Source: a virus. Taken from it: a stretch of DNA of 24,687 nucleotides. A model generated the notes under the pieces. The model ran no database searches. It was not told the DNA's origin and saw only the letters and a program-made list of their open reading frames with translations. The position numbers and the translations under genes are program-made. Below are positions 1-24,687 of the stretch, piece by piece. The stretch covers positions 1 through 24,687 of the IMG/VR virus record IMGVR_UViG_3300042691_013016; one strand, 5' to 3'. The number at the start of each line of letters is the position of its first letter. Positions within the stretch are counted from its first letter, which is position 1.

Positions 1-97
1 CGCTTCCGGTGAAACGTCCGAGGCGTAATTTATCCCACGCGCTGGTGTTCTGGGCCACGCTGGCCATGTATTCGGTTAAATAGGGGTTATTGCTCAT
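1..97 (-). CDS. Phage exonuclease, YqaJ/lambda-exonuclease type (N-terminus only)
   Basis: Partial gene that runs off the left end; only the first 32 residues are visible. The ATG at 95-97 overlaps the stop of the upstream annealing-protein gene by 11 bases. The visible end contains WDKLRLGRFTGS, which resembles the W-x(3)-R-x-G-x-[FIV]-T-[AG]-S start of YqaJ-like viral recombinases, PD-(D/E)XK nucleases that resect double-stranded ends to leave 3' single strands. The catalytic residues lie outside the window, so the call rests on this short motif plus the neighbouring Rad52-like gene, the usual partner of such nucleases. It could instead be another PD-(D/E)XK nuclease. Confidence 0.55.
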   Translation of the reverse strand, partial: MSNNPYLTEYMASVAQNTSAWDKLRLGRFTGS

Positions 98-752
98 TTT
101 GCTTTTCAATTAATTGGTTTAAATGTGTTTTTTGGCTGGGGCTCATTACGTTTTCCAGTGAGCCGATGGCTGCGATGGCGAGTGGATCGCGGTTCATTAT
201 TCCCACCTCCAGTTTATTGATTACGGCCTGAGGTAATTCGCCCACTTGTAATTTATAGGGCTGGTATTGATCCACGTTTTTTCGGTTAAGATCGCGGCCG
301 AATATCTTTCCCAGAGATTGGGCGGCGTTTTTTAAACACTCGCTTTTGAGTTTAGGGAAAGCCATATCGAGGGCATTGGCTTTTTTGTTGCTGGGATTGA
401 GAGCCCACTGATTGCGATCGGTGCCAGTTACGCCATCGGGTACCCGATCCACCATAATAACAATGGAGGCGGCTCCGGTGCGGCGAATCTCGAAACCTGT
501 TACGGGGTGGATACAAACGAGCTCAATGGATCCTTGCACCTCGTTGGCGATGGCGTTCCATTTAAAGTTTTCGGTTTTCCATTGGCCAAAAAATAATTCG
601 TCCAGAGTCATTTCGATATGTGAAATAACCACGGTTTGGGCCTTACGATCGGGAGTGGATTCCACGGCCAACTCGCTGGGTGCTGAGTTGAGCCGCGTTT
701 GAAATTTCTGGAGCGAATCCAGCGTTTCGGGGTTTAACGGATAAGTAAGCAT
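87..752 (-). CDS. Rad52/DdrA-like single-strand annealing protein
   Basis: 221-aa protein. The central part reads as a Rad52-like fold: a strand pair around HPVTGFEIRRTGAASIVIM (residues 82-100) and then the helix-turn region LKNAAQSLGKIFGRDLNR (residues 140-157), a pattern I associate with Rad52/22-family annealing proteins of phages. These proteins coat exonuclease-made single strands and pair homologous sequences during phage recombination and replication. The C-terminal 60 residues look like a flexible tail. The gene overlaps a downstream exonuclease start by 11 bases, giving a Red-like nuclease/annealer pair. The start is the first ATG after a 55-base AT-rich gap. RecT or Erf families are less likely because their conserved blocks are not seen. 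Confidence 0.55.
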   Translation of the reverse strand: MLTYPLNPETLDSLQKFQTRLNSAPSELAVESTPDRKAQTVVISHIEMTLDELFFGQWKTENFKWNAIANEVQGSIELVCIHPVTGFEIRRTGAASIVIMVDRVPDGVTGTDRNQWALNPSNKKANALDMAFPKLKSECLKNAAQSLGKIFGRDLNRKNVDQYQPYKLQVGELPQAVINKLEVGIMNRDPLAIAAIGSLENVMSPSQKTHLNQLIEKQNEQ

Positions 753-807
753 ATTAGAGTAATGATGTTTATTATTAATAAAACTCTGAGTTCGGTTCGG
801 ATATCAT

Positions 808-1086
808 TCATAGCGCTTGATTTATGCGCTCGAGAACGCGGTTGTACATTTCCATAAATTCTTCGCGCGTTATTGCCTTAACGCTGCTGTTAGTTGCTGC
901 CATTGGCACCTCGCTCAGTAACCAAATGTTCGCTTGTTTGATACGCACCCAATCATTAACGCTGAGAATCCTATCCTCGGCGAGTATTGCCCACATGGTA
1001 TAGGAGTCGGAACAATAATAAGGGAGCTCAATTTTGAGTGTGTCCACGGTGGTTAGGACTTTTACGGGGATTTCTAAAGTTGCCAT
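808..1086 (-). CDS. Small protein of unknown function (92 aa)
   Basis: I do not recognise this protein. It is 92 aa, mixed beta then alpha: an N-terminal strand-rich half (MATLEIPVKVLTTVDTLKIE) and a C-terminal helix (EEFMEMYNRVLERINQAL). There is no signal peptide, membrane segment or Cys cluster. It lies in the minus-strand early-type cluster between another small unknown and the Rad52-like gene, with a short A/T-rich leader ending TTTTTAAG before the ATG and no Shine-Dalgarno sequence, as is common in Bacteroidota. Codon style (GAG, CTC, GCC) matches its neighbours, which supports a real gene. Confidence 0.65.
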   Translation of the reverse strand: MATLEIPVKVLTTVDTLKIELPYYCSDSYTMWAILAEDRILSVNDWVRIKQANIWLLSEVPMAATNSSVKAITREEFMEMYNRVLERINQAL

Positions 1087-1107
1087 CTTAAAAATAGATT
1101 TTGGGGG

Positions 1108-1308
1108 TTAAAAATTGGATGTTAATTCGATTGAGTAATCGTTACCGATACCGCCAGCAATAAAGTTGCCGTGGTTATCCTCGCGGTATTCGAGGCCAAG
1201 ATCCTCGCAACGATCAATAAAGGAAATAAGCGCTTCGCGAATGTTTTGAAACTCGATAATTTGCGAGGTGCGATCCGGGTGGTTTGAAATAATAAGTGAG
1301 TAACTCAT
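1108..1308 (-). CDS. Small protein of unknown function (66 aa)
   Basis: Unrecognised 66-aa protein containing a predicted helix around NIREALISFIDRCEDLG and a Gly/Asn-rich turn (HGNFIAGGIGNDYSIEL) near the C-terminus. No motif that assigns a function. It is the first gene after the candidate attenuator at 1335-1360 and is followed 21 bases later by the 92-aa gene, so it probably shares their transcript. Short accessory proteins like this are common beside phage recombination genes, but no role can be inferred from the sequence. Confidence 0.6.
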   Translation of the reverse strand: MSYSLIISNHPDRTSQIIEFQNIREALISFIDRCEDLGLEYREDNHGNFIAGGIGNDYSIELTSNF

Positions 1309-1334
1309 AATAAAAGGGTTTTAAGTTGCTATGG

Positions 1335-1360: not shown

Positions 1361-1371
1361 CCCTGAGGTTA

Positions 1372-1575: not shown

Positions 1576-1599
1576 TGTGTTAATGTGTTAATTGTTTGG

Positions 1600-1711: not shown

Positions 1712-3010
1712 TTAGGCGTATGAATACCGCCCATAATTGGGGAAAAGCTCGAAAAACATACGCATGGCTACCGCATCAGCGTAATCGGGTGAAATGCCAT
1801 GAGTTCGGGCAATTTCCTCTTTACCAGTTACCGCCAGTTTGCCATCGCCCTCGGGGTTTTTACGGCGTATTAAATCGAGTTCCTTAACGATCGTATCCCG
1901 GTGCTGGATCGGGAATGTGATTCGGTTTAATTCCACGAATTCGGCCAACTTAAAAAAACATTCGGCCTTGAGATTAACGAACCGCTCTGGCTTTGTGGCC
2001 CTTGAGCCGTTACGAAACTCGCGACACTTGAGCACATCCACCAGCCCCGCCCCCAGCCCATCGGCATCGGCGATAACATTCGATAATTTTACTTTGTGGT
2101 AATCGGCCAGTTCCCGAATGATGGCCGCCGTTTCATCGATCTTCTTTTTTCGGAGCTCTGTTATTTGAATCAGCGATAAACCACGCCAGAGGGCGATTAC
2201 GGTTCGATCCTTTCCCAGTCGCGCAATATCGGCCGTGATGTATAACTCACCCGTTTCGCTGGCTGGGCGAAAACATCGCAGTAAATCGTCCGTGGTAAAT
2301 AGCGCGTCCAGAGTTTCGTCAAAATCCCAATCGCCATCCAATAACCTTTTACGATCCACCTCTGGCAACCGTGCGAGGGTTTCGGCGTACGTGGGGGGTA
2401 AATGGGGATTATCAGCCACGCGGGATTGAATAAACACCAGATGGGGGGGCAACTGGTTCGCTCGAAACGGGGCGAAAAACTCGTTATATAACCAACCTTT
2501 GGAGGGGTTACAAGTGAGCAACGTTTTGGGGCTTAGATTGTATTGATTGAGGCGGTAACGAATACGGCTCCTTACGATATCGATGGCCTTTTTGCTCACC
2601 TGAGAGCATTCGTCAATAAATGAATCGGTAATTTCGAGCGATCCCAGAGAATCAAACGAAGGATCTGAGGGGTAAGCGAATAGATCCTTTAAAATAATTT
2701 CCGATCCATTCGAGAAAGTAATAACATTCGATTGGGCATTAAACTGGTAATGTTTATTCGCCACCAGCCCGAATAACCCCGCCACCTCGAAAAACGTTTT
2801 GAGCGTGGTTTTCTTCAGTGTATCGAGTTTTGATCGCCCGATCAGGCCGCGAGTCCCGGGATACTTTAAACGCCTCATAATTTGCCACGCGCAACCAGTA
2901 AACGATTTCGCACCGCCAGCGGCCCCGCCAAATAACACCACCTCAGCGGGGGAATCGAGCCCCAGCGCATCGAGGGCGGCGTTTTGCTTTGGTAAAAACT
3001 CAATGGGCAT
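1712..3010 (-). CDS. terL: Terminase large subunit (packaging ATPase/nuclease)
   Basis: 432 aa, normal TerL length. The N-terminal ATPase has a Walker A variant GGAAGGAKS (residues 28-36), Walker B SFIDECSQ with D133/E134, and the coupling motif TCNPS (166-170). The C-terminal RNase H-like nuclease has TADIARLGKDRT with D261, then IADADGLG (D315/D317) and the final acidic pair in SPDYADAV (D409/D412). TerL docks on the portal, pumps DNA into the prohead and cuts the concatemer. It is encoded on the minus strand, overlapping the upstream 62-aa gene by 11 bases, whereas the TerS candidate (5509-5856) and all virion genes are on the plus strand, which is unusual because TerS and TerL are normally adjacent. 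Confidence 0.93.
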   Translation of the reverse strand: MPIEFLPKQNAALDALGLDSPAEVVLFGGAAGGAKSFTGCAWQIMRRLKYPGTRGLIGRSKLDTLKKTTLKTFFEVAGLFGLVANKHYQFNAQSNVITFSNGSEIILKDLFAYPSDPSFDSLGSLEITDSFIDECSQVSKKAIDIVRSRIRYRLNQYNLSPKTLLTCNPSKGWLYNEFFAPFRANQLPPHLVFIQSRVADNPHLPPTYAETLARLPEVDRKRLLDGDWDFDETLDALFTTDDLLRCFRPASETGELYITADIARLGKDRTVIALWRGLSLIQITELRKKKIDETAAIIRELADYHKVKLSNVIADADGLGAGLVDVLKCREFRNGSRATKPERFVNLKAECFFKLAEFVELNRITFPIQHRDTIVKELDLIRRKNPEGDGKLAVTGKEEIARTHGISPDYADAVAMRMFFELFPNYGRYSYA

Positions 3011-3188
3011 GGATCCAGTAAATTAAATAAATCGGGTTATTGGTTCGTTTGTAAAGTTCGGCGGTAATCACATTTAGGCGGCGGCGTTTCTTTCGCTGAT
3101 CGACTGAGTTTTTATCTGGGGCAATTAGCAAGCGCCACCGTTCACCCCGTAATTCATCAGTTGAGTAATCAGCTAGTTTTTTCCTCAC
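3000..3188 (-). CDS. Small basic protein of unknown function (62 aa, GTG start)
   Basis: Unrecognised basic protein with a helical core (YSTDELRGERWRLL) and a Lys/Arg-rich stretch (QRKKRRRLN) that could bind nucleic acid. The frame is open up to an ATG at 3251, but that start would overlap the upstream DnaA-like gene by 67 bases. A GTG at 3186-3188 makes a 4-base GTGA overlap with the upstream stop, the same coupling used across this operon, so I prefer it and read 62 aa. Sitting immediately upstream of terL, it may be a packaging accessory, but nothing in the sequence proves this. Confidence 0.6.
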   Translation of the reverse strand: MRKKLADYSTDELRGERWRLLIAPDKNSVDQRKKRRRLNVITAELYKRTNNPIYLIYWIHAH

Positions 3189-3682
3189 GCTAAAATTTCG
3201 ATTTGGGGTAAAAAGTGGGCCAATCCATTTAGGTTTTTTTCGCTCAGGCATTTCGCCAAATCGTTTAACTTATTTCGCGTTTGGGGATCACACGAATAAC
3301 GAATGGCCATCGATTTTTTGGCGTGTATTACTGAGGCATGGTCGTATTTATGGTGGAATAATTTCCCGATCGTTTCAAAGGTTGCCCCGGGGAGTTCAAA
3401 GTAAAGCGCCACCATTACCATTTGGCGGCTCAGCACCTCGTTAAAACGGCGGCTGGTAGTTTTACCAATGTTTTCCACGCCCGTTAATTCGCTCACCATT
3501 TTAAAAACGAATTCGGTTATTTGCTCGGCCCCCATTGGATCGGCGTTTAACCCCTCGAGGTATGTTACCGCCTCAGCCATCATTTCGGGGGTAAAATGGG
3601 GCATGAGTAGGGTAATAACCTTTTTTTGGTACCTCTGAGGGATTAAGGCGCTGGCGGTTTTTAGTGTTTCAGTTGCGTTCAT
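3185..3682 (-). CDS. DnaA domain-IV-like DNA-binding protein without ATPase
   Basis: 165 aa. Residues about 65-130 resemble the C-terminal DNA-binding domain of DnaA: SRRFNEVLSRQMVMVALY, then TFETIGKLF, then HKYDHASVIHA (111-121), which parallels the DnaA signature with a D-H-x-[ST]-V-x-x-A core. No Walker motifs exist, so it cannot be an initiator ATPase. Known DnaA_C-only phage proteins are expected to bind specific double-stranded sites; possible jobs are binding the phage origin, competing with host DnaA for DnaA boxes, or recognising a packaging site, given that terL lies two genes downstream. Coupled to the HTH gene before it by ATGA (3679-3682). Confidence 0.65.
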   Translation of the reverse strand: MNATETLKTASALIPQRYQKKVITLLMPHFTPEMMAEAVTYLEGLNADPMGAEQITEFVFKMVSELTGVENIGKTTSRRFNEVLSRQMVMVALYFELPGATFETIGKLFHHKYDHASVIHAKKSMAIRYSCDPQTRNKLNDLAKCLSEKNLNGLAHFLPQIEILA

Positions 3683-4132: not shown

Positions 4133-4162
4133 TTTAAATTAGTAGCCACAAAGATATGTTTG
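4133..4162 (+). promoter_or_regulatory. Candidate rightward promoter (TTTA / TATGTTTG)
   Basis: -7 box TATGTTTG at 4155-4162 matches TAnnTTTG exactly; a near -33 box TTTA (4133-4136) lies 18 bases upstream. It would start transcription near 4169 and drive the long plus-strand late operon. The box contains the ATG at 4156, so a message from here would not carry that start codon. Confidence 0.5.
4149..4156 (-). promoter_or_regulatory. Candidate leftward -7 box (TATCTTTG) overlapping the rightward one
   Basis: On the minus strand TATCTTTG fits TAnnTTTG exactly, about 28 bases upstream of the ATG at 4121. No clear TTTG -33 element is seen 18-21 bases upstream. Together with the rightward box it forms CAAAGATATGTTTG, a near-palindrome that could also be an operator. 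Confidence 0.4.
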
Positions 4163-4731
4163 TTTTTTGCTACATTGAAAAGGGTTTGAAAAAAGTTTTG
4201 GACACCGAACTGGAAAAGCATTACCCCACGTGGCGGCGGTTCGCTCGCGGCCTCACCCGCGACACGGTAAAGGGTGACGATCTACTGGCCGAAACGCTTT
4301 TGAAGATCTTGGAAAACCAACGTGAAAAGGCGGAGGCTCTGGCGGCTGAGGGAAAACTATTTTACTATGTTAACCGCGCTTTGTACCTAATGCACATCGA
4401 CCCATCGGGACGTTTTGGGGTGAAATATGGAAAGTTCGCTCGCAACTGGGAAACCCTAAGCGAGAAACATCTGGAGGAACCGATGGCCCCATGGCTGGGA
4501 TCGCGACTTGATAACGAGTATTTGGATGCGTATATCCAATTAATGCCCCAATTGGATGGCGTGGTTTTGAGGTTATATATGCTGGACGATTTCAGTTACA
4601 AGGAAGCCAGTAAGGCCACTGGCATACCGGTGAAACAACTTTACAAATTAGTCGAAAACGCAATTACTAAAATTAAAAAAAATGTTCAAAGTACCCCCAG
4701 CAATCGCGGCCGAAAGAATGGCGGCGTGTAA
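4156..4731 (+). CDS. Sigma-70-like (ECF-type) regulatory protein
   Basis: 191 aa from the first ATG. Residues 16-55 resemble sigma region 2 (YPTWRRFARGLTRDTVKGDD then LLAETLLKILENQ), and residues 128-175 resemble region 4: LMPQLDGVVLRLYMLDDFSY followed by KEASKATGIPVKQLYKLVENA, an HTH. Such proteins may redirect host RNA polymerase to phage late genes; here it is the first gene of the late-type operon. The ATG at 4156 lies inside the predicted -7 box, so a TTG at 4198 (protein starting MDTELEKHYP, 177 aa) is a better candidate start. The last 50 bases overlap the next gene. Function as a true sigma factor is inferred; TerS-like or other HTH regulators with this layout also exist. Confidence 0.6.
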   Translation: MFVFCYIEKGLKKVLDTELEKHYPTWRRFARGLTRDTVKGDDLLAETLLKILENQREKAEALAAEGKLFYYVNRALYLMHIDPSGRFGVKYGKFARNWETLSEKHLEEPMAPWLGSRLDNEYLDAYIQLMPQLDGVVLRLYMLDDFSYKEASKATGIPVKQLYKLVENAITKIKKNVQSTPSNRGRKNGGV

Positions 4732-6479: not shown

Positions 6480-6613
6480 GCGGTAACGATCTCACGAAAC
6501 ACGATTTGGTTTTAGATAAGGCGGCCAGTTCGGTATTTACCCACCTCAGTTACATGAGGGATTTTAACGCCGAGCAAGCGCGAATAATGAAACAAGCATA
6601 CAAATTGAAATGA
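5853..6613 (+). CDS. Tail assembly chaperone, frameshift form (gpGT-like, -1 frameshift)
   Basis: The -1 frame is open from 6329 to the stop at 6611-6613 and reads as protein: RWGWFHILEAVSGNDLTKHD, then LVLDKAASSVFTHLSYMRDF, ending MKQAYKLK. Slippage must fall between 6329 and 6476. The best site is a run of nine T (6340-6348), read CTT TTT TTT TCG in frame zero, which offers a perfect T-TTT-TTT heptamer; a weaker alternative is the C5T run at 6429-6434. The -1 stop overlaps the start of the fibre gene as ATGA, the coupling used throughout this operon, which argues that the -1 frame really is translated. Programmed -1 shifts here are a conserved feature of long-tailed phages. Confidence 0.7.
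6340..6348 (+). promoter_or_regulatory. Candidate -1 ribosomal slippery site (T9)
   Basis: Nine consecutive T in the chaperone gene, frame zero TTT TTT at 6342-6347. Both tRNAs can re-pair after a one-base back-slip. It is the longest T run in the window and lies 12 bases after the last -1 frame stop (6326-6328). Confidence 0.55.
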
Positions 6614-9111
6614 TTACTCAAATAAGTTACAACGTATTGATCGAGCGGATGAGGGTTTTCGCCTCTGGCCACTTTCTCATTAAGGGATTTACTCACGGGC
6701 ACCCATCCAATATCGATATTGAAAAGGATCTCCAGTTCCCATGGATGCACGTTTACCCCGTTGAGGTTGAACCCCGGGCTGGATCGCGTTTGTATTCATT
6801 TATAATCACGTTCGCCGATTTGCCGCGTGACAAAGAAACGCCCGCCGAATACGAGCGCGAGGTAATAAGCGATTGTATAAAGTTGGCCGAGGATCTTATC
6901 GCCGAAATTCAAAACGGCCTCACCCTATTCGGGCCAACCGTGGAGCTCGAGGGCTCGCCATCGATCGAGGTGTTTATACAAGAATATTCCCAAACCTTAA
7001 CTGGCGTTAATCTGGCGCTCACCCTTTCGGTGCCATGGGATTGGAACGCTTGCGATATTCCAGCCGATTGGACGGTTGGCGGTTCGGGATCTGGCGGCAC
7101 GGGTTCGGGAGGATCTGGGGTAATACTGGAAACCAACGGCGTGTTAAATGGCGATCAGACTTTACTCAATTTGCAACAGGGCACCAACGTAACCATTACC
7201 GACAATGGATCGGGAACCATTACGATCAGCGCAACTGGCGGGGGCGGTGGATCTGGCACGGTAACCAGCGTGGGGCTTTCAGCGCCATCGGCTTTCAACG
7301 TTTCGGGCTCACCAGTTACAACCTCTGGCACCCTCGCAATATCTGGGGCGGGTAACGCGGGCCAATACATCGATGGCACGGGATCGCTTCAAACGTTCCC
7401 CACTATTCCAGCGGCTCAGGTTCCCGCCGATTGGAACGCCACCACTGGGGTGAGTCGAATACTCAATAAACCAACGATCCCCGCCGCTCAGGTAAATAGC
7501 GATTGGAACGCCTCAAGTGGCGTGGCTGAGATCCTAAATAAGCCAACCATACCAGCGGCCCAGATCCAAAGCGATTGGAACCAATCGAATAACGCGGCGC
7601 TGGATTTCATTAAAAATAAACCGACAATTCCCACTACGCTGGATAGCCTAACGGATGTAACCGCACCATCGCCAACCAACGGCCAAGTGTTAACATGGAA
7701 CGGAACGGCGTGGGTGAATAGTACGCCATCGACTGGGGGCACGGTTACCAGCGTGGCGTTAACGATGCCAGCGGCTTTCTCGGTTACTGGATCGCCGATT
7801 ACCACGGCGGGCACCCTCGCGGTTACTGGGGCTGGTAATACTGGCCAATATGTTCGGGGCGATGGTACCCTCGCAAATTTCCCATCGACTGGGGGCGGCG
7901 GCGGCCAAATATTTTATTTTAACGGGAATATCTCTCAGGGTACAATTGGGGGGAATGATTTTTACCAATTAGGTACGGCGGCCAACACTGGCCCAGCGGC
8001 TAACTTTACACGAAACACAACTGGAGCAATTGCGCGGTTTATTACGGATGTAAATAGCCCGAATCATTTGATAATTCCAGCGGGGGTTTGGACGGTGGAT
8101 GCATACCTGAGCGAAACGGGAGGGGGTTCGAATAACGCCGAAATAATCGCTGTTTTGAAGGTTTACAACGGATCGACTTTTACCACCATCGCGAGCTCAC
8201 CACTGGAGCAAATCACTAACGGCAACGTTCCCGATCTTTACACGTTCGCCATATCGGTACCGAATACCATAACCGCCGCAACCGATCGCGTGGTTATTGA
8301 GTTCGATATTCAGAACACCAATGGTAAAACCGTAACGCTTTACACCGAGGACGGGCGAATTGGTGAGGTGCATTCAACGTATGCCATCGGGATCAGTTCA
8401 TTAAATGGACTAACGGCCAACACCCAAACATTCGCAACGGGAACCACCGGAACCGATTTCGGAATTAATTCGGCTGGATCAGTTCACACGTTCAATTTAC
8501 CCACGGCCTCCGCTTCGAATCGGGGTGCTCTCTCGAGCGCTGATTGGGCCACGTTCAATGGTAAACAAAATTCGATCGGTTTAACCACGGTGGGAACCAA
8601 CCTCGCCACGTTGCCAAACCCTAGCGCGGTTCGTTACTTGAGAATAAATGCCGATAACACGGTGAGCGCGTTAACGATTGCGGCTCTGAAAAGCGATCTG
8701 GGTATTAATAGCGTGGTTTTAAGTACTAACTTTAGCAACGTAGGGACGGCGAATTACGAGGATGTAACGGGGCTATCTTTCCCCGTGACTGCTAATAAAG
8801 TTTATAAGTGGCGGGCCACGCTCGGCTACACCAACACGGCAAACATTCAATTTGCCATTGATGGGCCCGCGGTAACTTTTAACCGATATCGTTTCACCAC
8901 GGCGGGAACCTCAACAAGTAACCTCGTAAATAATCAGAGTAGTTATAATAACCCGAATTCAACTAGCGCGGCGGTAAACGGCGTTAGTACGGCAGATGGC
9001 TTAATAAGGCCCAGCGCGAGCGGAACGTTAATAATTAGGGCCCGCTCGGCTTCAGTTGGTGGGGTAACGGTGTTGGCTGGATCAATAATCGAATGGGAGG
9101 AAGTTTTATAA
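6610..9111 (+). CDS. Tail-protein/fibre fusion with repeat modules (receptor-binding candidate)
   Basis: 833 aa, composite. Residues 1-150 form a compact alpha/beta domain typical in length of a tail terminator or head-tail joining protein. A Gly/Ser linker (GGSGSGGTGSGGSG, about 157-170) connects it to a fibre: two copies of a GTVTSV...GSP[VI]TT[SA]GTLA module (about 216 and 376) flanking three tandem 24-26-residue IPAAQ...DWN...NKPT repeats, then a beta-sandwich region (about 440-590), a SNRGALSSADWATFNGKQ motif seen in phage fibres, and a C-terminal jelly-roll-like domain ending IIEWEEVL. It probably mediates host contact. Start coupled to the chaperone frameshift product (ATGA); stop overlaps the next ATG (TAATG). 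Confidence 0.7.
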   Translation: MITQISYNVLIERMRVFASGHFLIKGFTHGHPSNIDIEKDLQFPWMHVYPVEVEPRAGSRLYSFIITFADLPRDKETPAEYEREVISDCIKLAEDLIAEIQNGLTLFGPTVELEGSPSIEVFIQEYSQTLTGVNLALTLSVPWDWNACDIPADWTVGGSGSGGTGSGGSGVILETNGVLNGDQTLLNLQQGTNVTITDNGSGTITISATGGGGGSGTVTSVGLSAPSAFNVSGSPVTTSGTLAISGAGNAGQYIDGTGSLQTFPTIPAAQVPADWNATTGVSRILNKPTIPAAQVNSDWNASSGVAEILNKPTIPAAQIQSDWNQSNNAALDFIKNKPTIPTTLDSLTDVTAPSPTNGQVLTWNGTAWVNSTPSTGGTVTSVALTMPAAFSVTGSPITTAGTLAVTGAGNTGQYVRGDGTLANFPSTGGGGGQIFYFNGNISQGTIGGNDFYQLGTAANTGPAANFTRNTTGAIARFITDVNSPNHLIIPAGVWTVDAYLSETGGGSNNAEIIAVLKVYNGSTFTTIASSPLEQITNGNVPDLYTFAISVPNTITAATDRVVIEFDIQNTNGKTVTLYTEDGRIGEVHSTYAIGISSLNGLTANTQTFATGTTGTDFGINSAGSVHTFNLPTASASNRGALSSADWATFNGKQNSIGLTTVGTNLATLPNPSAVRYLRINADNTVSALTIAALKSDLGINSVVLSTNFSNVGTANYEDVTGLSFPVTANKVYKWRATLGYTNTANIQFAIDGPAVTFNRYRFTTAGTSTSNLVNNQSSYNNPNSTSAAVNGVSTADGLIRPSASGTLIIRARSASVGGVTVLAGSIIEWEEVL
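7405..7626 (+). repeat. Three tandem fibre repeats (72, 72 and 78 bases)
   Basis: Units at 7405-7476, 7477-7548 and 7549-7626 encode IPAAQ-x(3)-DWN-x(7-9)-I-x-NKPT. DNA copies have diverged at many third codon positions (ATT CCA, ATC CCC, ATA CCA), so these are old, selected protein repeats rather than a recent slip duplication. Confidence 0.8.
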
Positions 9112-14139: not shown

Positions 14140-14315
14140 AATTAAACACAATCAGCCCAGCCCTCGCATTGCTTAAACATGGCATTCGCGCAAACGAACC
14201 CTCGCGCCGTTTATATGGTAGCCGCAAATGGCTCTATTACGCGGCAAAATGGGGATCGTTTGGGGTATGGTGGGGGTTTATTGCTTATCTAATATTTAAG
14301 TGGTTTAATGGCTGA
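14136..14315 (+). CDS. Small membrane protein before the tape measure (59 aa)
   Basis: 59 aa starting at ATG 14136, which overlaps the hub stop as ATGA; a longer in-frame start at 14103 would overlap the hub gene more and is unlikely. Basic N-terminal half (GIRANEPSRRLYGSRKWL) then a hydrophobic span (FGVWWGFIAYLIFKWF) near the C-terminus. Function unknown. Its position just upstream of the tape measure could mean a tail-tip or DNA-ejection accessory. It overlaps the tape-measure start by 8 bases. Confidence 0.6.
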   Translation: MKLNTISPALALLKHGIRANEPSRRLYGSRKWLYYAAKWGSFGVWWGFIAYLIFKWFNG

Positions 14316-16632
14316 AAATTCAAACATATTAATTACCGTTACCGCCGACGATTCGGGGGCGATTACCAAAATAAATAAATTAGGTAATGAGATCAACACG
14401 GCGGGCGATGCTTCCAAAAGTTGGATTAAACAACTGGGTGAGTTAAAAACTCAACTCGGGCAAATCGATCCTAAATCGGCTGAGTGGGCTAATCTCGCGA
14501 TTCAATATAAGGAGCTCGGCGGTTCGGCCAAAGTTGTGAGCCAGTCATTCGAGGAATTACGCGCCCAATCGGCTGGGGTTGGCAATTCGATTCCAACCGA
14601 ACCAGTAAAGAATTTTCGCCAGCAAATAAAGGAGTTAACCAACGAGCTCCAAACCACGCGGCTCGATAAAACATCGGACGAATACCAATCGCTGGTTAGA
14701 AGATTGGAGGCGGCCAAAGATGCCCAGAAGGATTTTAACGAAAACATCGGAGCCAACGCGGGGCCAGCGTTTGAAAGCGCGGGTAATAATCTTCGAAATT
14801 TACAAAGCCGCCTCGGCTCGCTGGATTTCAGCGGTGCGGCCGATAGTATTAAAGGGCTCTCGGCAAATATTAAAGGGCTCAACTTTTCGGGGGCAACCGA
14901 TGGCGCTGGGGAATTCGGTAAATCAATAATTGGACTGGGCAAAGCCCTTTTAACCAACCCGATTTTTTTGATCGGTTCGGTGCTGGCGTTACTGATTACC
15001 AATTTCGATAAACTCGCCAACGTGGTTCCCGCTCTGGGAATTGCTTTCGAGGTTATTGGATCGGTAATCGGTGCGGTAAAAGATGCCATAACTGGTTTTA
15101 CTGATGCGATTGGTTTAACGGCCGTGGCCGCCGCTGATGCGGTCGATGGCGCGATTGGTAATTTAGAAGATAAACAGAAAACACTCGATAACGCCCGCCG
15201 TTTAGCGGTTGCCAATGCTCAAAAAACTGGTGGGGATGTGGCGGCCGTAAACGCTGAATATCGCCAAAAGGAAATTGCCGATAATAACAAACTGATCGCC
15301 GATATAAACGCTCTCGAGCGAAAGGGCGTAAAGCTAACCAGTGAGCAAATAGCGGCGAGAAAAAAGTTAATCGATCAAAATAAGGAAACCACAATTAAGG
15401 CGGCCGAGGAGGAAGCCGCCGCCGTTCAAAAAACACGCGAGGATGCGGCACGAGAGGAAGAAAAGAGGCTCGAGAAAGCCGAGCAAGCGGCTGAGAAAGC
15501 GCGTGAAAAGGCAAAGCAAGCGGCTGAGGCTCGAAAGGCTCGCGAGGCCGAGGTAACGGATGCAATAAAACAAGCCGAGGAAACCCGTTTCCAGAACACA
15601 CTCACCGCCGAGGATCGGGAATTAAGACAAGTCGAGTTAAAATACCAAACATTAAGAGAAAAGGCGGGCACCAACGCGGCGTTATTGACTCAATTGGAGG
15701 AACAACAATTCCAAGATCGCCAAGCCATACGCGATCGATACACCGCCGAGGAAATCGCGGCGCAAGATGCGGCCGATGCCAAACGACTCGAGGCCGAAAG
15801 GGCCGCCGCCGTGAAAGCGAATCAGGATCGAATCACTCGCGAGGATCAATTATTTAAACTCGATCAGGAAATTGAAAACCGCCGCACGGCTGAGCGTGAG
15901 GGAATCAATGCGGCCAAACGAGAAAAGGCAGTTGAGGATCTGGTTTCGGAATATGACGCGAAGTTTGAACAGGCCAACGGTAATGCCGAGCGTGAAAAAG
16001 CGTTACAAGATCAATTGAATAAAGAACTCGCCCGAATCAATAACCAATACCGCACGGATGAAAAGGCGGCAACGGATAAAAGTTCGGCCGATCGCCTCGC
16101 ATCATTTCAAGCAACGAGTGAACTGGTTACGAAATCGGCTCAAGATGGGATTTCCACCCTCCTATCGTTAAACGAGGCGTTCGCTGGTAAAAGTGAGGCC
16201 AGCCAAAAGAAAGCATTTCAACGAAATAAAGCGTTGCAAATCGCCCAAACGAGCGTTAACACATACCAGAGCGCGACCAGCGCTTACGCCTCTCAGGTAA
16301 TCCCCGGGGATCCAACCTCAGTTGTGCGAGGTGTGATTGCGGCGGCCTCAGCCGTTGCGGCTGGTTTGGCGAACATTGCAAAGATTAAGGCCACCACTTT
16401 ATCGAGCCCAGCGCCGAGCGGTGGGAATAATAACACAACGGGGGGATTAAATAGCGGGGGCGATTTGGCCTCTCAGGGCGTTGCCTCGAGTGGCGTTCCC
16501 CAGTTCAACCCATTGGGTAATTTAGGACTGGCCAACCAACCGAACCAAATCCAGCCCGCTTACGTTTTATCTTCAGATATTGCCTCGAGTATGGAAGCGC
16601 GTTCGAAAGTTGAGGACTTGAGCCGTTTATAA
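14308..16632 (+). CDS. Tape measure protein
   Basis: 774 aa. The N-terminus resembles other tape measures (TVTADDSGAITKINKLGNEI). Residues 60-200 are helical with SLDF/LNFSGA repeats, about 215-280 hydrophobic and Gly/Ala-rich (PIFLIGSVLALLITNF ... VIGSVIGAVKDAITGF), possibly inserting into the host membrane at ejection, and about 290-610 form a long Ala/Glu/Lys/Arg coiled coil. The Gly-rich end (SSPAPSGGNNNTTGG) is flexible. At about 1.5 angstrom per residue it would set a tail of roughly 115 nm. Unusually it follows the tail-tip genes instead of preceding them. Confidence 0.88.
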   Translation: MAENSNILITVTADDSGAITKINKLGNEINTAGDASKSWIKQLGELKTQLGQIDPKSAEWANLAIQYKELGGSAKVVSQSFEELRAQSAGVGNSIPTEPVKNFRQQIKELTNELQTTRLDKTSDEYQSLVRRLEAAKDAQKDFNENIGANAGPAFESAGNNLRNLQSRLGSLDFSGAADSIKGLSANIKGLNFSGATDGAGEFGKSIIGLGKALLTNPIFLIGSVLALLITNFDKLANVVPALGIAFEVIGSVIGAVKDAITGFTDAIGLTAVAAADAVDGAIGNLEDKQKTLDNARRLAVANAQKTGGDVAAVNAEYRQKEIADNNKLIADINALERKGVKLTSEQIAARKKLIDQNKETTIKAAEEEAAAVQKTREDAAREEEKRLEKAEQAAEKAREKAKQAAEARKAREAEVTDAIKQAEETRFQNTLTAEDRELRQVELKYQTLREKAGTNAALLTQLEEQQFQDRQAIRDRYTAEEIAAQDAADAKRLEAERAAAVKANQDRITREDQLFKLDQEIENRRTAEREGINAAKREKAVEDLVSEYDAKFEQANGNAEREKALQDQLNKELARINNQYRTDEKAATDKSSADRLASFQATSELVTKSAQDGISTLLSLNEAFAGKSEASQKKAFQRNKALQIAQTSVNTYQSATSAYASQVIPGDPTSVVRGVIAAASAVAAGLANIAKIKATTLSSPAPSGGNNNTTGGLNSGGDLASQGVASSGVPQFNPLGNLGLANQPNQIQPAYVLSSDIASSMEARSKVEDLSRL

Positions 16633-16640
16633 AAATAGAT

Positions 16641-17228
16641 ATGGAAAAAAAGAAAATTGTTAAGTGTGTTATTGACGATGGCGGTAAACTCGGCGTGGGT
16701 GCGATCTCACTGGTTGAGTTCCCAGCGATCGAGGAAAATTTCATCGCATTAAACGAGGTGAAAATGGCCAGCGTGAATAACGAACGCCGAATGTTATACG
16801 GCCCCGCGCTGATTCCAAATAAGTACATTTTGCGAATCGATAAAAATACTGGCGAGGATTATTACATTTATTTCGAACCCGAAACGATCGCCAAATGTGC
16901 CCATTTATACCTCAAAAAAAATTTGCAACATAACACCACGATCGAACACAACTTTTCGGTTATGGGTTGCCCAGTTGTGGAAAGCTGGATTATTGAGGGC
17001 GAAAAGGATAAGGCTTACCATTTCGGGCTATCGGCTCCGGTGGGCTCGTGGATCGTTGGCGTTAATGTTACTGATGACGAAATTTGGGCTGAGGTAAAGG
17101 ATGGGAATGTAAAAGGATTTTCGATCGAGGGCCATTTTAACGAGCTCGCCGTTCATATGCAAGCGGTGGACTCGGAGTCTGAAATATTGCGTGAAATAAG
17201 CGAGGTTATTGCTGGGTTTTTTGGTTAA
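16641..17228 (+). CDS. Prohead protease, XkdF family
   Basis: 195 aa. The sequence follows the XkdF-type phage serine protease pattern: GVGAISLVEFPAIEENF (19-34), MLYGPALIPNKYILRID, IEHNFSVMG with candidate catalytic H103, VVESWIIEG, APVGSWIVG and GFSIEGHF with candidate nucleophile S161. It would cleave the scaffold and capsid precursors during head maturation. It is the last gene of the long plus-strand operon and is followed by a strong terminator. It is separated from the scaffold and capsid genes by a gene on the opposite strand, which is atypical for a head protease. Confidence 0.85.
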   Translation: MEKKKIVKCVIDDGGKLGVGAISLVEFPAIEENFIALNEVKMASVNNERRMLYGPALIPNKYILRIDKNTGEDYYIYFEPETIAKCAHLYLKKNLQHNTTIEHNFSVMGCPVVESWIIEGEKDKAYHFGLSAPVGSWIVGVNVTDDEIWAEVKDGNVKGFSIEGHFNELAVHMQAVDSESEILREISEVIAGFFG

Positions 17229-17261
17229 TTTATACGTGTTTAAGTGTTTAAGTGTACAAAG

Positions 17262-17287
17262 AAGCCCCCAAACGAGGGGGCTTTTTT
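17262..17287. terminator. Strong, probably bidirectional rho-independent terminator
   Basis: AAGCCCCC (17262-17269), loop AAACGA, GGGGGCTT (17276-17283) and a T run to 17287. It lies between two convergent genes ending at 17228 and 17331. On the minus strand the stem is followed by CTTTGT, a weaker T tract, so it may stop transcripts from both sides. Confidence 0.9.
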
Positions 17288-17330
17288 GCAACAATAACAC
17301 ATATATAGAACCAAACGAGATTGGCCAAAT

Positions 17331-18377
17331 TTAAAACAACTTTTCCTCTCCCGTTTCTAAATTTATCGACTGGCCAATATTTTCATTTTTACCGCCAGCG
17401 GGTAAAAACTCCATGTAAGCCAATAACTCGGCCGATTCTTTCAGATCGGGGTTAAAAGTAAGCGTTTTCGTTTTCGCATCGTAACGGTTAATTGTACCCG
17501 CTTCGATGTTTATAGTAGTATCTTTATGGGGATCCAGAGGGATGTTAAGCGTTGAGCCATAAACGTTATCTGTTACGTTAACGGCTGGCCCATTATTCAG
17601 TCGGTACATTTGCATAAATCCAGTATATGTTTTACCAAACGAATTAATCAGCGTTTTGTAATTTAATGAATTCGATGGCTCGCCATTGATGTAAACCGTG
17701 CTCTTTATTTGGTTGGCGTTTCGCTCGATATCCATGGCGATGTTATTAATGTGAGTGGCTGGATCTGTTTTCACCAGATTATAAGTCCATCGGCTCTTAT
17801 AAATTACCTCGTCCATGGTAAGCCCGCAAATGCTCAGGAATTCCGATCGGCGAAGGCGTTTTTTTGGGGTAATCGCAAATCTCGAAGTCCAAACCACTTT
17901 TCCCGCTTTCATTATTCTGGCTTTGTATTGCACTCTCATAATCGGATCCTCCATATCGAGCGCCATGCCATTCATGGTGGTTTCGTATGGTTCGAACATT
18001 TGCTCGATCTTATCCTCGTTTAAAAGTAATTTGCCATCTACATAGTAAACGTTTTGCCCAGCTAGCCCGCTAATTGCTGGGTGAACAACCCACACGCTGG
18101 GGCGGTGCAATAGATAACCCTGAGGCGTTTCGCCCGCGTCCATGTAACCGCCGTGGTGTAACATACCAGCGATGTAATTTAAAGGGTATAAACCAAACGG
18201 GGCGGGTATCCCATCGCGGAATTGAACCTCGTAACGATTCACCGGAAGCGGCCCAGTTGTATCGGTTATTTCGTAAACCGTAATCGCGCGAGTAACGCGG
18301 GTTTGGATTTGCCCATCGAATCGGGCGAAGTGATCAGGGAGGCCCAATACCTCCAGAGTTTTTTGAATGTTTGCCAT
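17331..18377 (-). CDS. Unknown 348-aa protein inverted within the head gene cluster
   Basis: I do not recognise this protein. It is 348 aa, soluble, with no signal peptide. It has a Gly/Tyr/Pro-rich N-terminal part (PFGLYPLNYIAGMLHHGGYM), a middle with KARIMKAGKVVWTSRFAI, a basic patch (TPKKRLRRSEF) and a beta-rich C-terminal third. It is the only minus-strand gene right of 4121 and interrupts the protease-scaffold-capsid order, ending in the shared terminator. Codon use is like its neighbours, so it is not obviously a recent arrival. It may be an independently expressed extra gene (moron) or a structural protein moved by inversion. Confidence 0.75.
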   Translation of the reverse strand: MANIQKTLEVLGLPDHFARFDGQIQTRVTRAITVYEITDTTGPLPVNRYEVQFRDGIPAPFGLYPLNYIAGMLHHGGYMDAGETPQGYLLHRPSVWVVHPAISGLAGQNVYYVDGKLLLNEDKIEQMFEPYETTMNGMALDMEDPIMRVQYKARIMKAGKVVWTSRFAITPKKRLRRSEFLSICGLTMDEVIYKSRWTYNLVKTDPATHINNIAMDIERNANQIKSTVYINGEPSNSLNYKTLINSFGKTYTGFMQMYRLNNGPAVNVTDNVYGSTLNIPLDPHKDTTINIEAGTINRYDAKTKTLTFNPDLKESAELLAYMEFLPAGGKNENIGQSINLETGEEKLF

Positions 18378-18403
18378 TTGTGTGATTTTTTACGAAAATA
18401 GGG

Positions 18404-20019: not shown

Positions 20020-20580
20020 ATGGCTTGTTTACTCGAAAGGGGCTTCATGCTCGAATGTAACGAAGGGGTCGGCGGGGTTAAAAATATATATATTGCCAAC
20101 TGGGAATTTTTCGAATCTGGTATTACAATCGATCCAGCCACTGGATTTATTGATGGCCTACCAGGAGTGGCGGGAAGCGTTGACGTTTTCCAGTACCAAC
20201 CAAACCGCAACACTGGAGCGGTTACGGTGGTGCCAACCGCAAACCTCGAAAATGGAACTTTGTATTACGATCAAACCGTGGAATTAACTCTCGGAAAGTT
20301 GGCTAATGCAAAGAAAAAAGAACTGGAAAACATGAGCAAAGCGAAACTAATCGTTTTCGTTCAATTGTACGATAACCAAATCGTATGTGTTGGCCGTACC
20401 GATGGCGCTTTCCTAACTGCTGGATCGTACCAATCAGGTAAGGCGAAAGGCGATCTAAATGGTTACCAGATTACTTTGAATGCTCAGGAACCAAACCAAC
20501 CAGATTTTTTGGAGGAATATTTCCCCGCGAGCGATGTACCTTTTAGCAATTTCCCCGGGATTACCGTTGTGAATTCGTAA
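20020..20580 (+). CDS. Major tail tube protein
   Basis: 186 aa, compact and beta-rich. The opening MACLLERGFMLECNEGVGGV followed by KNIYIANWEFFE resembles the structural tail protein I associate with Bacteroidota siphophages, and the middle (YDQTVELTLGKLANAKKKEL) has the central helix of tube proteins. Flanked by strong terminators on both sides, it appears to be set apart as a highly transcribed unit, in line with tube subunits being needed in hundreds of copies. Assignment by pattern and position. Confidence 0.7.
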   Translation: MACLLERGFMLECNEGVGGVKNIYIANWEFFESGITIDPATGFIDGLPGVAGSVDVFQYQPNRNTGAVTVVPTANLENGTLYYDQTVELTLGKLANAKKKELENMSKAKLIVFVQLYDNQIVCVGRTDGAFLTAGSYQSGKAKGDLNGYQITLNAQEPNQPDFLEEYFPASDVPFSNFPGITVVNS

Positions 20581-20641: not shown

Positions 20642-21031
20642 ATGAACTATTTAACTACAAACCAAGCGGGCCAAACGTTGCGACTTTCATTAAATGAGAG
20701 CCGCCAGTATTTCGCCACGGCGTTCACTCATTATTTGGTAATTTTAACCCATGAAGAAAATTCCACAACTGGAACCGATCTCGCTCAGGTGGCTACTATT
20801 TTAAACGAAAACCAACGTATTACCACGCTTATCATTACAACCGTGCCGCTGGATCTCTCAGGGCGTTATCGTTATGAGATTTATGGCCAAAATTCAGCCG
20901 TAAATTTAAACCCATTGAATGCCTCGGTTGTGGGATTGTGTCGCATTGGTTGGCTGGATATGACTGATAACGCCACTTTTTACGATGTGCCCTCTATTAC
21001 TATTAATGACGATGTAATTTACAATGGATAA
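20642..21031 (+). CDS. Unknown virion-type protein before the portal (129 aa)
   Basis: 129 aa, beta-rich with no Cys cluster or membrane span. Recognisable features are THYLVILTHEENSTTGTD near residue 29-46 and the run GRYRYEIYGQNSAVNLNPLN, which looks like a small beta-sandwich of the sort found in phage adaptor or decoration proteins. I cannot name a family. It overlaps the portal start by 8 bases (21024-21031), so it is probably translationally coupled to it and belongs to the head or neck. Confidence 0.6.
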   Translation: MNYLTTNQAGQTLRLSLNESRQYFATAFTHYLVILTHEENSTTGTDLAQVATILNENQRITTLIITTVPLDLSGRYRYEIYGQNSAVNLNPLNASVVGLCRIGWLDMTDNATFYDVPSITINDDVIYNG

Positions 21032-23390
21032 AACATTAAATAACGCGGTTAGTGTGAAACTGGCCGATTACACGGTTATAAGTTCGGCCGAGAAAACCGA
21101 TCGCGGCGGCTGGGTTAATTTCGGGGTAAACAATTTATTCCCCCAATACCTCAGGGAACTGGCCCAAACTGGGGCGGTACATGGTTCGCTTTGTATTTCC
21201 ATTGGCGATATGATCGCGGGTAAGGCTTTGAACGCTGGAATTTACAACCGCCGTTTAACTGAGCTCGAGGCATACGATGTATTTTATGGTTGCGCCCATG
21301 ATTATAAAAAATACGGCGGCTTTTACATGGAGGTTATTTACACTTATGATCGCGAGAGCGTGGCGAAGTTGCGCCATATCCCTTTCGAGGAATGCCGCCT
21401 CGGGGTGAGTGGCGAGGACGAAGAAATTACGGGCGTATGGCATTCGAATGACTGGGCGGCAACAAAGCGAAAGCGTAATAAACCCGAATTCGTGCCACTT
21501 TATAACGTGGCCAAAAAGGCCGAGGAACCACGCCAAATTTATTATTGTTTCAATTATACCAGCGGGCAATTTTACCCACGCCCAGATTATTACTCGGCGA
21601 TTAATTCGATTGAGTTGGCGAAGGAAATTAGTATTTACCACATCAATAACATCGTTAACGGGTTAATGCCATCGTTTATCGTTTCATTATTTCAAGGTGC
21701 ACCAGATCCCGATCAACAGAACCAAATGAAACGCGACTGGGAGCGTGAGTTAACTGGTGCTAAAAACGCTGGTAAGTTCATAATGACGTTTAACGAGCGC
21801 GATACACCGAAACCAGATATTACAACTTTTCCGCTTTCCGATGCTGATAAACAATATCAGTTTTTAAGTACCGAAAGCACCTCGTTAATAATGGTGGCGC
21901 ACCGCGTAACGACTCCACTTTTGTTTGGTATTCGTGACGTTGCCACGGGCTTTGGATCTAATAAAGACGAAATGGCGGTGGGATTGGAAATTTTCACCAA
22001 TCAGGTAATTGAGCCCGCTCAGCGTAAAATATCGAAAGCGTTCGAAGATGTTTTATCGTTTGAAATGCCCGGGATTCAAATAAACGTGGTTCCAAATACT
22101 CCATTGGCTGGTGGTGTTGCCATCGCGCCAGCGGGTGAGGTTTCAATTGAGGAAACCGCGCCAGCGGCTGAGGCTTCAAACGTAGCGGGTACCGCTCTTA
22201 ACGGGGCGCAAATCGCCTCAATGGTTGAGATATTGATCCAAGCGGCAACGGGTATTTTACCAATCGAAAGCGCCAAGGGTGTAATCCGTGCAAGTTTCCC
22301 AACGCTCACCAACGTTCAAATCGATGAAATTTTCAGCGGTATAAAAGCGGGTTCGGTTAATCCAAACGAGGTGGCGATGGGTGCGTTTCAAACTTTTCTC
22401 AGCCATGTTAATGGTGAAAAAAAAAAAGAATGTACGTGTTTGGCGGCTGAATCATTCCCGCCCACTGGCGAGATGAAAGCGGCCGCCGAATTGGGGCTAA
22501 AGTGGCGGGATGAATATAACCGAGGTGGTACCGAGGTGGGCGTGGCGAGAGCTCGCGATATTTCAAACGGCCGTAATTTATCGATCGAAACAATTACTCG
22601 AATGAATAGTTATTTCGCCCGCCACGCGGTGGATAAAGAGGCCAGCGGCTGGAATCAAGGCGAGGACGGTTTCCCCAGTGCTGGGCGTATCGCGTGGGAA
22701 TTGTGGGGCGGGGATGCTGGCCGCGATTGGGCGGCGCGTATGGTTGAAAGGATCGAGCGCGAAAACCTCAATTCTGAAATCGCTGATGAATTAATTAAAC
22801 TGGGTGAGGATGCACCAGAGGGCTATATTTTAATCGATAGTTACGAGGTGGATTACGATAATGACGATCTGGAAAACGAGGAACTAATAAAGATCGAAGC
22901 CCACGAACTGGCGGTTTCAACTGGTTCGGCCAAACCAATGGCCCCGAGCGATCAGGATGAAACCAATTACGCGGGGGTTACGTTTATGACTCGTTACCGG
23001 TACTTTGGAAAATCCTCGAGTAATCGCCCATTTTGCGCTAAAATGATGGCGGCCGATAAACTTTACCGAAAGGAAGATATCGAGGCAATGGAAAATAAAG
23101 TGGTAAACCCCAAGTGGGGGCCAAATGGAACCGATTATTATTCGATTTGGCTTTATAAGGGCGGAGGAAATTGCAACCATGCATGGCGAAAGGAAACGTT
23201 CATTAATGCCAAAGGAATAAACCCACTCGCCAACGATGCCCAGCGTATCGCGGTGGCGAAAGCGGCAAAGATGGGATATCGAGTGAAAAACGATGAACTG
23301 GTGGCGTTGCTTCCAATCGATATGGATTACAATGGGTTTTTAGAAACAAACCCCGTTTATGGTAAAGAGGGTAAAAATTATAGAAGATAA
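21024..23390 (+). CDS. Portal protein with a long C-terminal fusion (788 aa)
   Basis: Residues 1 to about 470 are the portal core: RYFLIKE regions such as GGWVNFGVNNLFPQYLREL, FYMEVIYTYDRESVAKLRH, IMVAHRVTTPLLFGIRD and the end block LNGAQIASMVEILIQAATG (about 392-410). Portals of this kind are normally 400-550 aa. After the run of 11 A at 22417-22427 (KKK, 466-468) comes an extra 320 residues: a block ARARDISNGRNLSIETITRM, MNSYFARHAVDK and GRIAWELWGGDAGRDWAARM (about 504-575), then RYRYFGKSSSNRPFCAKMM (about 656-675) and KGGGNCNHAWRKETF (about 712-726), whose C/C/H residues could bind zinc. Overlaps the previous gene by 8 bases. Confidence 0.8.
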   Translation: MDKTLNNAVSVKLADYTVISSAEKTDRGGWVNFGVNNLFPQYLRELAQTGAVHGSLCISIGDMIAGKALNAGIYNRRLTELEAYDVFYGCAHDYKKYGGFYMEVIYTYDRESVAKLRHIPFEECRLGVSGEDEEITGVWHSNDWAATKRKRNKPEFVPLYNVAKKAEEPRQIYYCFNYTSGQFYPRPDYYSAINSIELAKEISIYHINNIVNGLMPSFIVSLFQGAPDPDQQNQMKRDWERELTGAKNAGKFIMTFNERDTPKPDITTFPLSDADKQYQFLSTESTSLIMVAHRVTTPLLFGIRDVATGFGSNKDEMAVGLEIFTNQVIEPAQRKISKAFEDVLSFEMPGIQINVVPNTPLAGGVAIAPAGEVSIEETAPAAEASNVAGTALNGAQIASMVEILIQAATGILPIESAKGVIRASFPTLTNVQIDEIFSGIKAGSVNPNEVAMGAFQTFLSHVNGEKKKECTCLAAESFPPTGEMKAAAELGLKWRDEYNRGGTEVGVARARDISNGRNLSIETITRMNSYFARHAVDKEASGWNQGEDGFPSAGRIAWELWGGDAGRDWAARMVERIERENLNSEIADELIKLGEDAPEGYILIDSYEVDYDNDDLENEELIKIEAHELAVSTGSAKPMAPSDQDETNYAGVTFMTRYRYFGKSSSNRPFCAKMMAADKLYRKEDIEAMENKVVNPKWGPNGTDYYSIWLYKGGGNCNHAWRKETFINAKGINPLANDAQRIAVAKAAKMGYRVKNDELVALLPIDMDYNGFLETNPVYGKEGKNYRR
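22417..22427 (+). promoter_or_regulatory. Run of 11 A between portal core and C-terminal extension (possible slippage site)
   Basis: Longest homopolymer in the window, reading GAA AAA AAA AAA GAA in frame. Polymerase or ribosome slippage in either direction would end the protein within about 7 (-1) or 15 (+1) codons, giving a portal without the extra domains. Whether it is used is inference. Confidence 0.4.
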
Positions 23391-23395
23391 ATAAC

Positions 23396-23962
23396 ATGGC
23401 TGAAATACTTTTGATTTCCGATGTGTACGTTAAAAAGTACACGAACATAAATGGAGCGGTGGATCCTAACCTACTTTACCCCTCCATTTATTTGGCTCAG
23501 GATAAACACCTCGCGCCATATTTGGGTACTAACCTTTACGAAAAAATTAAAGACGATATTTTAAATAACACGCTCGCGGGGGCGTACCAAACATTGGTTG
23601 AGGATTACGCCCGCCGAGTTGTGTTATGGTGGGCAATGGTTGAGGCGGCCCCCACTCTCACGTATAAAGTCGATAACGGTACCATGGTGCAACGTACCTC
23701 AGAGGACTCTCAGCCCGTGGGGGATGTGATTTTTAAAGATCAATTGGCCCGCTGGCAACAAAACGCCGAATATTACACCAGTTTAATGGTGGATTGGTTG
23801 TGTGCCAACTCAAGTTTATTGCCCGAGTATTCGAATAATCAATGGCCACAACGTGCCCCGATTGGCTGGCAAAAGAGTTCAGCCAGTTATATTTTCAGTT
23901 CGGGCAATACCGCCAGCTCGCGCACCGGGCCACGTTACCGATCAATTAACCAAATCCCATGA
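23396..23962 (+). CDS. Head-tail connector, DUF6712-like
   Basis: 188 aa, mainly helical, starts five bases after the portal stop. The pattern SDVYVKKYTNINGAVDPNLL, then YLGTNLYEKIKDDILNN, LVEDYARRVVLWWAMVEAAP, and a C-terminal helix then Trp/Pro-rich tail (NNQWPQRAPIGWQ) matches the small adaptor proteins found after portal genes in Bacteroidota phages (DUF6712-type). It should join the portal ring to the neck. Ends in an ATGA overlap with the next gene. The family name is from memory of the pattern, not a search. Confidence 0.65.
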   Translation: MAEILLISDVYVKKYTNINGAVDPNLLYPSIYLAQDKHLAPYLGTNLYEKIKDDILNNTLAGAYQTLVEDYARRVVLWWAMVEAAPTLTYKVDNGTMVQRTSEDSQPVGDVIFKDQLARWQQNAEYYTSLMVDWLCANSSLLPEYSNNQWPQRAPIGWQKSSASYIFSSGNTASSRTGPRYRSINQIP

Positions 23963-24060
23963 AAACAGAAAGTAAAACCGCCGAGAAACGCCGTTTATAC
24001 CTCGAAGCGTTGAAACGCTACGAAAAACAATTACTCTCCAAAACGAAAAAAAAGAAATGA
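23959..24060 (+). CDS. Small basic peptide (33 aa)
   Basis: 33 aa, extremely Lys/Arg-rich (KRRLYLEALKRYEKQLLSKTK and a KKKK end), single helix. Too short for a normal gene call, but its ATG overlaps the connector stop (ATGA) and its stop overlaps the holin start (ATGA), so it fits the translation chain. Function unknown. Confidence 0.5.
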   Translation: MKTESKTAEKRRLYLEALKRYEKQLLSKTKKKK

Positions 24061-24383
24061 GTTTTTTCGAATACATTTCCGAAATTGTGAGCGATTCGGC
24101 TAGCTGGGTGATGGGAATTATTATCGGTATCCTCGGTAAAATATCATATGAAATATACATGAAACGAGCACTCTCAGTAATGCAATGGGTTGCCGTTATC
24201 GGCCTCTCAGTTTTTTGCGGTTACCAAACCGCCATTTATTGCCAGATGAACGGGCATGAAACGGAATCGACTTGGGCGGTACCGATGGCCACGTTAATGG
24301 GCGAAAAAATGTTTATTTACGTTATGAGTAATTACAAAAGGATTTTTACGGGGATCCTTGCGTTTTTCATGCCTAAAAAGTGA
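24057..24383 (+). CDS. Holin-like membrane protein
   Basis: 108 aa with hydrophobic spans at about 15-33 (ASWVMGIIIGILGKI), 41-60 (VMQWVAVIGLSVFCGY) and 72-105 (including YKRIFTGILAFFMPK), and a Lys-rich C-terminus. Size, span number and place at the edge of the head genes suit a phage holin that permeabilises the inner membrane for lysis, though no endolysin lies within the window. Coupled to both neighbours by ATGA/GTGA. It could instead be another phage membrane protein. Confidence 0.55.
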   Translation: MSFFEYISEIVSDSASWVMGIIIGILGKISYEIYMKRALSVMQWVAVIGLSVFCGYQTAIYCQMNGHETESTWAVPMATLMGEKMFIYVMSNYKRIFTGILAFFMPKK

Positions 24384-24687
24384 GCAAAAAAAACCCGAAT
24401 AAAAAACCCGTTGGCGAGCGAATTAAGGGCTCGAAATTCGGCGTGTTTATTCGCGACAAAGTAAAACCCGTGGCGGGCGATATTCTCGAGATCGCTGGCG
24501 ATATTACGGGCATTCAGGCGCTGGAAACCGTGGGCGCGTATCTCAATGGCCAAAAGCATAAAAGTGACGAACATAACGCACTGGCTTTGGAGTTCGAAAA
24601 GTTGCGGTTAAACTTTGAGTTGGAAATGACTCGGCTGGATATGCAAACCGAGCTCGAATATTACAAGGCTGAGGTGAGCGATCGCGA
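24380..24687 (+). CDS. Phage protein downstream of holin, partial (C-terminus missing)
   Basis: GTG start at 24380 within a GTGA overlap with the holin stop; runs off the right end after 102 visible residues. It begins basic (KKNPNKKPVGER), has a KVKPVAGDILEIAGDITG segment, then a long charged helix (LALEFEKLRLNFELEMTRLD). This 'KVKPVAGDILE' region followed by coiled coil is something I have seen in Bacteroidota phage genomes beside holins, but I know no assigned function. A membrane span may follow outside the window. Confidence 0.6.
   Translation, partial: MSKKNPNKKPVGERIKGSKFGVFIRDKVKPVAGDILEIAGDITGIQALETVGAYLNGQKHKSDEHNALALEFEKLRLNFELEMTRLDMQTELEYYKAEVSDR

Follow-up and report, generated by a model that had tools for sequence, protein, structure and literature searches.

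Near-elimination of CCWGG and of other short words from a probably lytic phage of a likely Bacteroidota host is consistent with Type II restriction-site avoidance

The phage and its relatives

The window, i.e. the whole stretch of DNA analysed here, is a 24,687 bp IMG/VR virus record that carries the genes of a tailed phage (terminase, portal, prohead protease, tape-measure and tail proteins; Table 1) and represents most of one tailed phage genome. An overlapping record (G002, locus L004), with 100% identity over 15.5 kb, contributes about 5.9 kb of extra sequence, which encodes YqaJ, DnaB, a C5 cytosine methyltransferase and NinG. Relatives were found by means of the large terminase, and the sample comprises 80 of the many closer relatives in IMG/VR; G001 and other relatives are ~31 kb long, and several have repeated ends. 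Within the window, positions 8001-8800 and 17201-18400 are mosaic stretches that are nearer to G006/G007 (82-91% identity) than to G001, which is the top match elsewhere. The sigma factor-like gene sits where two gene blocks of the window diverge, and positions 3185-3682 show a weak match, under the Pfam cut-off, to the DnaA C-terminal DNA-binding domain.

The isolated phages with the most similar terminases are Flavobacterium phage 11b, at 46% identity, and Cellulophaga phage phi10:1, at 42%, and Bacteroidia genomes hold more distant terminase homologues; judging from these homologies, the host is thus likely a member of the Bacteroidota. The phage is probably lytic (i.e. non-temperate), and a search limited to Phage_integrase gave no matches in 31 records, with the positive controls detected.

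Table 1. Features of the window and positions of the words discussed in the text
Feature	Position	Strand	Details
Large terminase	1712-3010	-	PHROG 2, E 2e-33; bait for relatives
Sigma factor-like protein	4156-4731	+	Pfam PhyR_sigma2 and Sigma70_r4_2
Tail fiber-like protein	6610-9111	+	Mosaic; 8001-8800 has 86-91% identity to G007
Tape measure-like protein	14308-16632	+	
Prohead protease	16641-17228	+	Peptidase_S78_2
Portal protein	21024-23390	+	C-terminal extension
Only CGWCG	14346-14350		
Only CCWGG (CCAGG)	20161-20165		Codons CCA GGA of gene 20020-20580
Near-absent words	1-24687		CCWGG 1, CGWCG 1, GGWCC 0, GDCGHC 0
Scarce words	1-24687		GACC/GGTC 5, AGAC/GTCT 8, GCAG/CTGC 11, ACAG/CTGT 18

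Depletion of CCWGG

The window contains a single CCAGG (20161-20165) and no CCTGG, together with 140 CCAG, 10 CCTG, 11 CCCGG, 14 CCGGG and 167 GATC; the counts in the first-pass annotation (one CCAGG at 20161, no CCTGG, more than 100 CCAG and about ten CCTG) were thus right. Base composition predicts 38.3 CCWGG sites, close to the roughly 40 estimated earlier, and first-order and third-order Markov models predict 28 and 27.2 sites, respectively. We also used a strict null, in which synonymous codons were swapped only between identical neighbouring bases, so that proteins, codon usage and all dinucleotides were kept. In 100 shuffles, restricted to the coding part, this null gave 36.7 +/- 4.7 CCWGG sites with a minimum of 24; in the comparison with Markov and codon-preserving models that had been proposed, the one observed site therefore lies below both expectations (27.2 and 36.7). 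Under the same null, CCSGG was normal (25 observed vs 25.8 expected), as had been noted, and GATC, described before as frequent, was in fact raised (about 158 vs 103). The depletion of CCWGG is real and strong, and it is tied to the whole word, as CCSGG is normal and the subword CCAG is abundant. Record G002/L004 has no CCWGG in 21.4 kb, which, together with the one site in the window, leaves one site in about 30.6 kb of known phage sequence.

Two side observations concern the abundant words. CCAG occurs at ~3x its dinucleotide-based expectation in the window, and GATC is over-represented 1.5-2x in the window, with near relatives depleted in or devoid of GATC.

Other depleted words

The depletion had been taken as specific to CCWGG, which did not hold, as CGWCG, GGWCC, RCAG, GACC, AGAC and GDCGHC are comparably depleted. 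Relative to a plain codon-shuffled null, the observed and expected numbers were 1 vs 34 for CGWCG, 0 vs 16 for GGWCC, 0 vs 24 for ACWGT, 3 vs 38 for GCWGC, 5 vs 94 for GACC and 8 vs 73 for AGAC. An apparent avoidance of CAG resolves into RCAG. A general avoidance of GAC was considered and rejected, as it resolves into AGAC, DGACC and CGACG, with GGACG, TGACG and CGACT near normal.

We then applied an unsupervised greedy search over all degenerate words of up to 6 bases under the strict null, in which accepted words were added as constraints; in the resulting lists the degenerate letters are approximate, and counts on both strands double the symmetric words. The search yielded 11 avoided words in the window, at least 14 in each of G001, G018, G020 and G022, 3-13 in the other relatives and none in four shuffled genomes. 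In Escherichia phage T7, which served as a positive control, it returned GATC and CCWGG first, i.e. the sites that we take to be the classical avoided sites of this phage. Many entries in the word lists of the family are symmetric or correspond to known Type II sites; the latter comprise CCGG, GATC, CCWGG, GGWCC, GCWGC, CATG, CTAG, GGNNCC, GCNNGC, GDGCHC, RCCGGY and AAGCTT.

The number of words also bears on the idea that the phage avoids the sites of its own nuclease for degrading host DNA, rather than those of host enzymes. Some phages encode site-specific nucleases, and NinG- and YqaJ-type nucleases are present here; however, none of the scanned genes could be recognised as restriction-endonuclease-like (several small genes being unannotated), and enzymes for ten or more words are implausible for one small genome, which makes this explanation exceedingly unlikely.

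Not all depleted words are palindromic, the exceptions being RCAG, DGACC and AGAC. In addition, the asymmetric AGCNC/GNGCT is eliminated in G022 and G023 (loci L121-L124), with 0 and 2 occurrences vs 149 and 137 expected on both strands; its asymmetry makes it a poor fit to ordinary Type II sites. These asymmetric words (RCAG, DGACC and AGAC in the window, AGCNC in G022) count against a pure Type II reading. Their near-elimination would be accommodated if Type III or IIG systems, BREX-like systems or CRISPR PAMs caused part of the avoidance, at least for the asymmetric words, with CCWGG itself a Type II case. We regard this combination as unlikely, if well short of remote: it leaves the symmetric words unexplained, overlapping palindromic sites could mimic some asymmetric words, and, in a survey of prokaryotic viruses (PMC6286503), the sites of Type I, IIG and III systems were avoided rarely or not at all.

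Turnover of avoided words among relatives

CCWGG occurs 0-1 times in G000, G001, G028, G029, G020 and G023, and is raised in G003 (32 observed vs 18 expected), G004 (31 vs 13) and G027 (70 vs 29). G001, which shows 81% identity to the window, likewise lacks CCWGG, GGWCC and CGWCG, and lacks CTAG, GCWGC and CASTG as well; GATC numbers 34 vs 100 expected in G001 and 167 vs 82 in the window. A wider group is entirely without CCGG, and other relatives lack GATC, AGCT, CATG or CTAG. G022 and G023 (85.7% identity) differ in CATG, GGWCC, GCWGC and CCWGG. These comparisons indicate that the banned words change quickly, i.e. between phages of 80-86% identity. As a further observation, CCGG is absent, at 0-2 occurrences vs 50-90 expected, over whole contigs of 16-32 kb in G005-G016 (e.g. 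L014-L045), a clade whose terminases are 85-89% identical to that of the window.

This turnover also bears on whether the depletion is a by-product of an oligonucleotide signature common to phage and host. Phages often resemble their hosts, and AG/CT is low in the window (0.62). However, fixing codon usage and dinucleotides does not remove the depletion of CCWGG, and neither CCAG, which is abundant, nor CCSGG, whose count is normal, shares it. Moreover, phages that are 80-86% identical differ in the words they ban, and the sole candidate host MAG has a normal CCWGG frequency. A shared signature is therefore very unlikely to be the cause.

The slot directly after DnaB varies among the relatives, from a C5 methyltransferase or an enzyme of the adenine/N4 type to no recognised methyltransferase. 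For the phage studied here, the gene in this slot is the C5 cytosine methyltransferase gene just beyond the window edge (L004:16137-17024); the slot is also seen in L130-L152, mostly about 1340 bp from the DnaB start. Its predicted product probably shields some sites while others are purged. When C5 recognition domains were compared with spared words, the clusters consisted almost entirely of copies of a single phage, and no link was drawn; across the family, no tie was found between methyltransferase types and banned words. It is conceivable, though we lean against it, that the sets of banned words, including the asymmetric RCAG, DGACC and AGCNC, switch within 14-20% nucleotide divergence in step with this exchangeable slot, so that the lexicon would record the recent restriction repertoire, including Type IIG/III-like systems. 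Type IIG/III-like systems are not known to drive site avoidance.

Loss of sites by substitution

Among codons aligned to CCWGG sites of relatives, the window retains 8 of 219, as compared to 22/136 for CCSGG, 146/353 for GATC and 354/1173 for CCAG; these instances are non-independent, as the relatives share ancestry. Of the single-base differences at the relatives' CCWGG sites, 48 were transitions and 45 transversions, and most fell on positions 1, 3 and 5. Between G022 and G023, retention was 22/111 for CATG, 0/19 for GGWCC and 2/22 for GCWGC, as compared to ~60% for the control palindromes TCGA, GCGC and TGCA, and the losses of CATG, GGWCC and GCWGC involved changes at every position. Comparisons of this kind indicate that selection rather than mutation removed the sites.

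The alternative that CCWGG was methylated by a Dcm-like enzyme and then lost by deamination of 5-methylcytosine to T, without selection, might draw on the C5 cytosine methyltransferase that the phage encodes just outside the window. Deamination, however, predicts inner C to T or G to A changes and raised CTWGG/CCWAG, and the deamination product CCAAG/CTTGG is instead low (15 vs 27 expected). The listed classes of change, which cover 86 of the 93 single changes, include no inner C to T or G to A; losses fall on the outer and central positions with transitions equal to transversions, and words without such chemistry are depleted equally. We consider this route scarcely credible.

At the one remaining CCAGG, a synonymous escape was possible. 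About eight of the sampled relatives have CCAGG or CCTGG at the matching codons, and the best-matching relative switches in the part of the genome around this site. The leftover site may have persisted from an ancestor or been imported recently.

Restriction as the probable cause

The explanation that we consider highly probable is that this phage of Bacteroidota, itself probably lytic, avoids Type II restriction sites in the classical manner; both the host and the role of a host enzyme as the selective agent are presumed. Host Type II enzymes cutting CCWGG (EcoRII-, PspGI- or MvaI-like) would select against the sites; genomes poorer in CCWGG would be likelier to survive entry, and substitutions of all types, most of them synonymous, would go to fixation until about 30.6 kb contained a single site. 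The same selection by other enzymes could have depleted about ten further words, and the exchangeable phage methyltransferase may protect other sites. As EcoRII requires more than one site to cut (PMC4081073), a phage with a single CCWGG would be nearly immune to it.

The search for EcoRII/dcm-like enzymes in Bacteroidota that had been suggested recovered EcoRII-C nucleases from 10 of the 395 Bacteroidia genomes sampled; at 8 of the 10 loci, a C5 methyltransferase, assigned by motif, lies close by. MvaI_BcnI nucleases, a family that cuts CCWGG or CCSGG, occurred in 28 of the 395; for either family, membership does not prove specificity. A Flavobacteriaceae MAG with a related terminase was tried as the host and set aside; its composition and CCWGG frequency are ordinary, and it gave no EcoRII-C or MvaI_BcnI match, which counts against the restriction reading, though its related 4.5-kb phage contig is possibly mis-binned.

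The first-pass annotation had left the choice between a host restriction enzyme and a methylase. The former gains from the strict null, the company of other Type II words, the turnover among relatives and the diversity of substitutions. A methylase alone falls away: an enzyme that only modifies would not purge CCWGG, and it is rejected because the substitutions lack the deamination pattern.

Comparison with known systems

Site avoidance itself is known; what is unusual here is how many words are affected, that some of them are asymmetric, and how quickly they turn over. The purging of short, mostly symmetric Type II words from a dsDNA phage with no integrase match agrees with the prokaryotic viruses surveyed previously (PMC6286503); the phage studied here differs in having about ten depleted words in a 24.7-kb window (at least 12 in several relatives), some of them asymmetric. 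In that survey, near-complete elimination of sites was seen in about one-tenth of the genomes and was commonest in non-temperate phages (PMC6286503), a trend with which the lack of integrase matches in 31 records is consistent.

T7 shows the same near-zero CCWGG (a single site in its analysed coding sequence), with GATC and CCWGG as its top words; it is unrelated, has five avoided words, and avoids GATC, which is raised in the window. Bacteroides phage B40-8, also a phage of Bacteroidota, had ten avoided words by the same search, so that multi-word avoidance is not unique to the family of the window; its words are, however, CGNCG, GGNNCC and CTAG, and do not include CCWGG. The closest isolates, Flavobacterium phage 11b and Cellulophaga phage phi10:1, each encode methyltransferases, as the window phage does, but have only 0-1 and 2-4 avoided words, respectively. 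With the exception of B40-8 (10), the other phages searched had 0-5.

If the restriction reading is true, the missing words would be a fingerprint of the restriction enzymes of the hosts and could serve host prediction for uncultured phages. Relatives that differ in banned words and methyltransferases would form a natural series for the rate and order of site purging, and the same series could show whether asymmetric sites are purged too.
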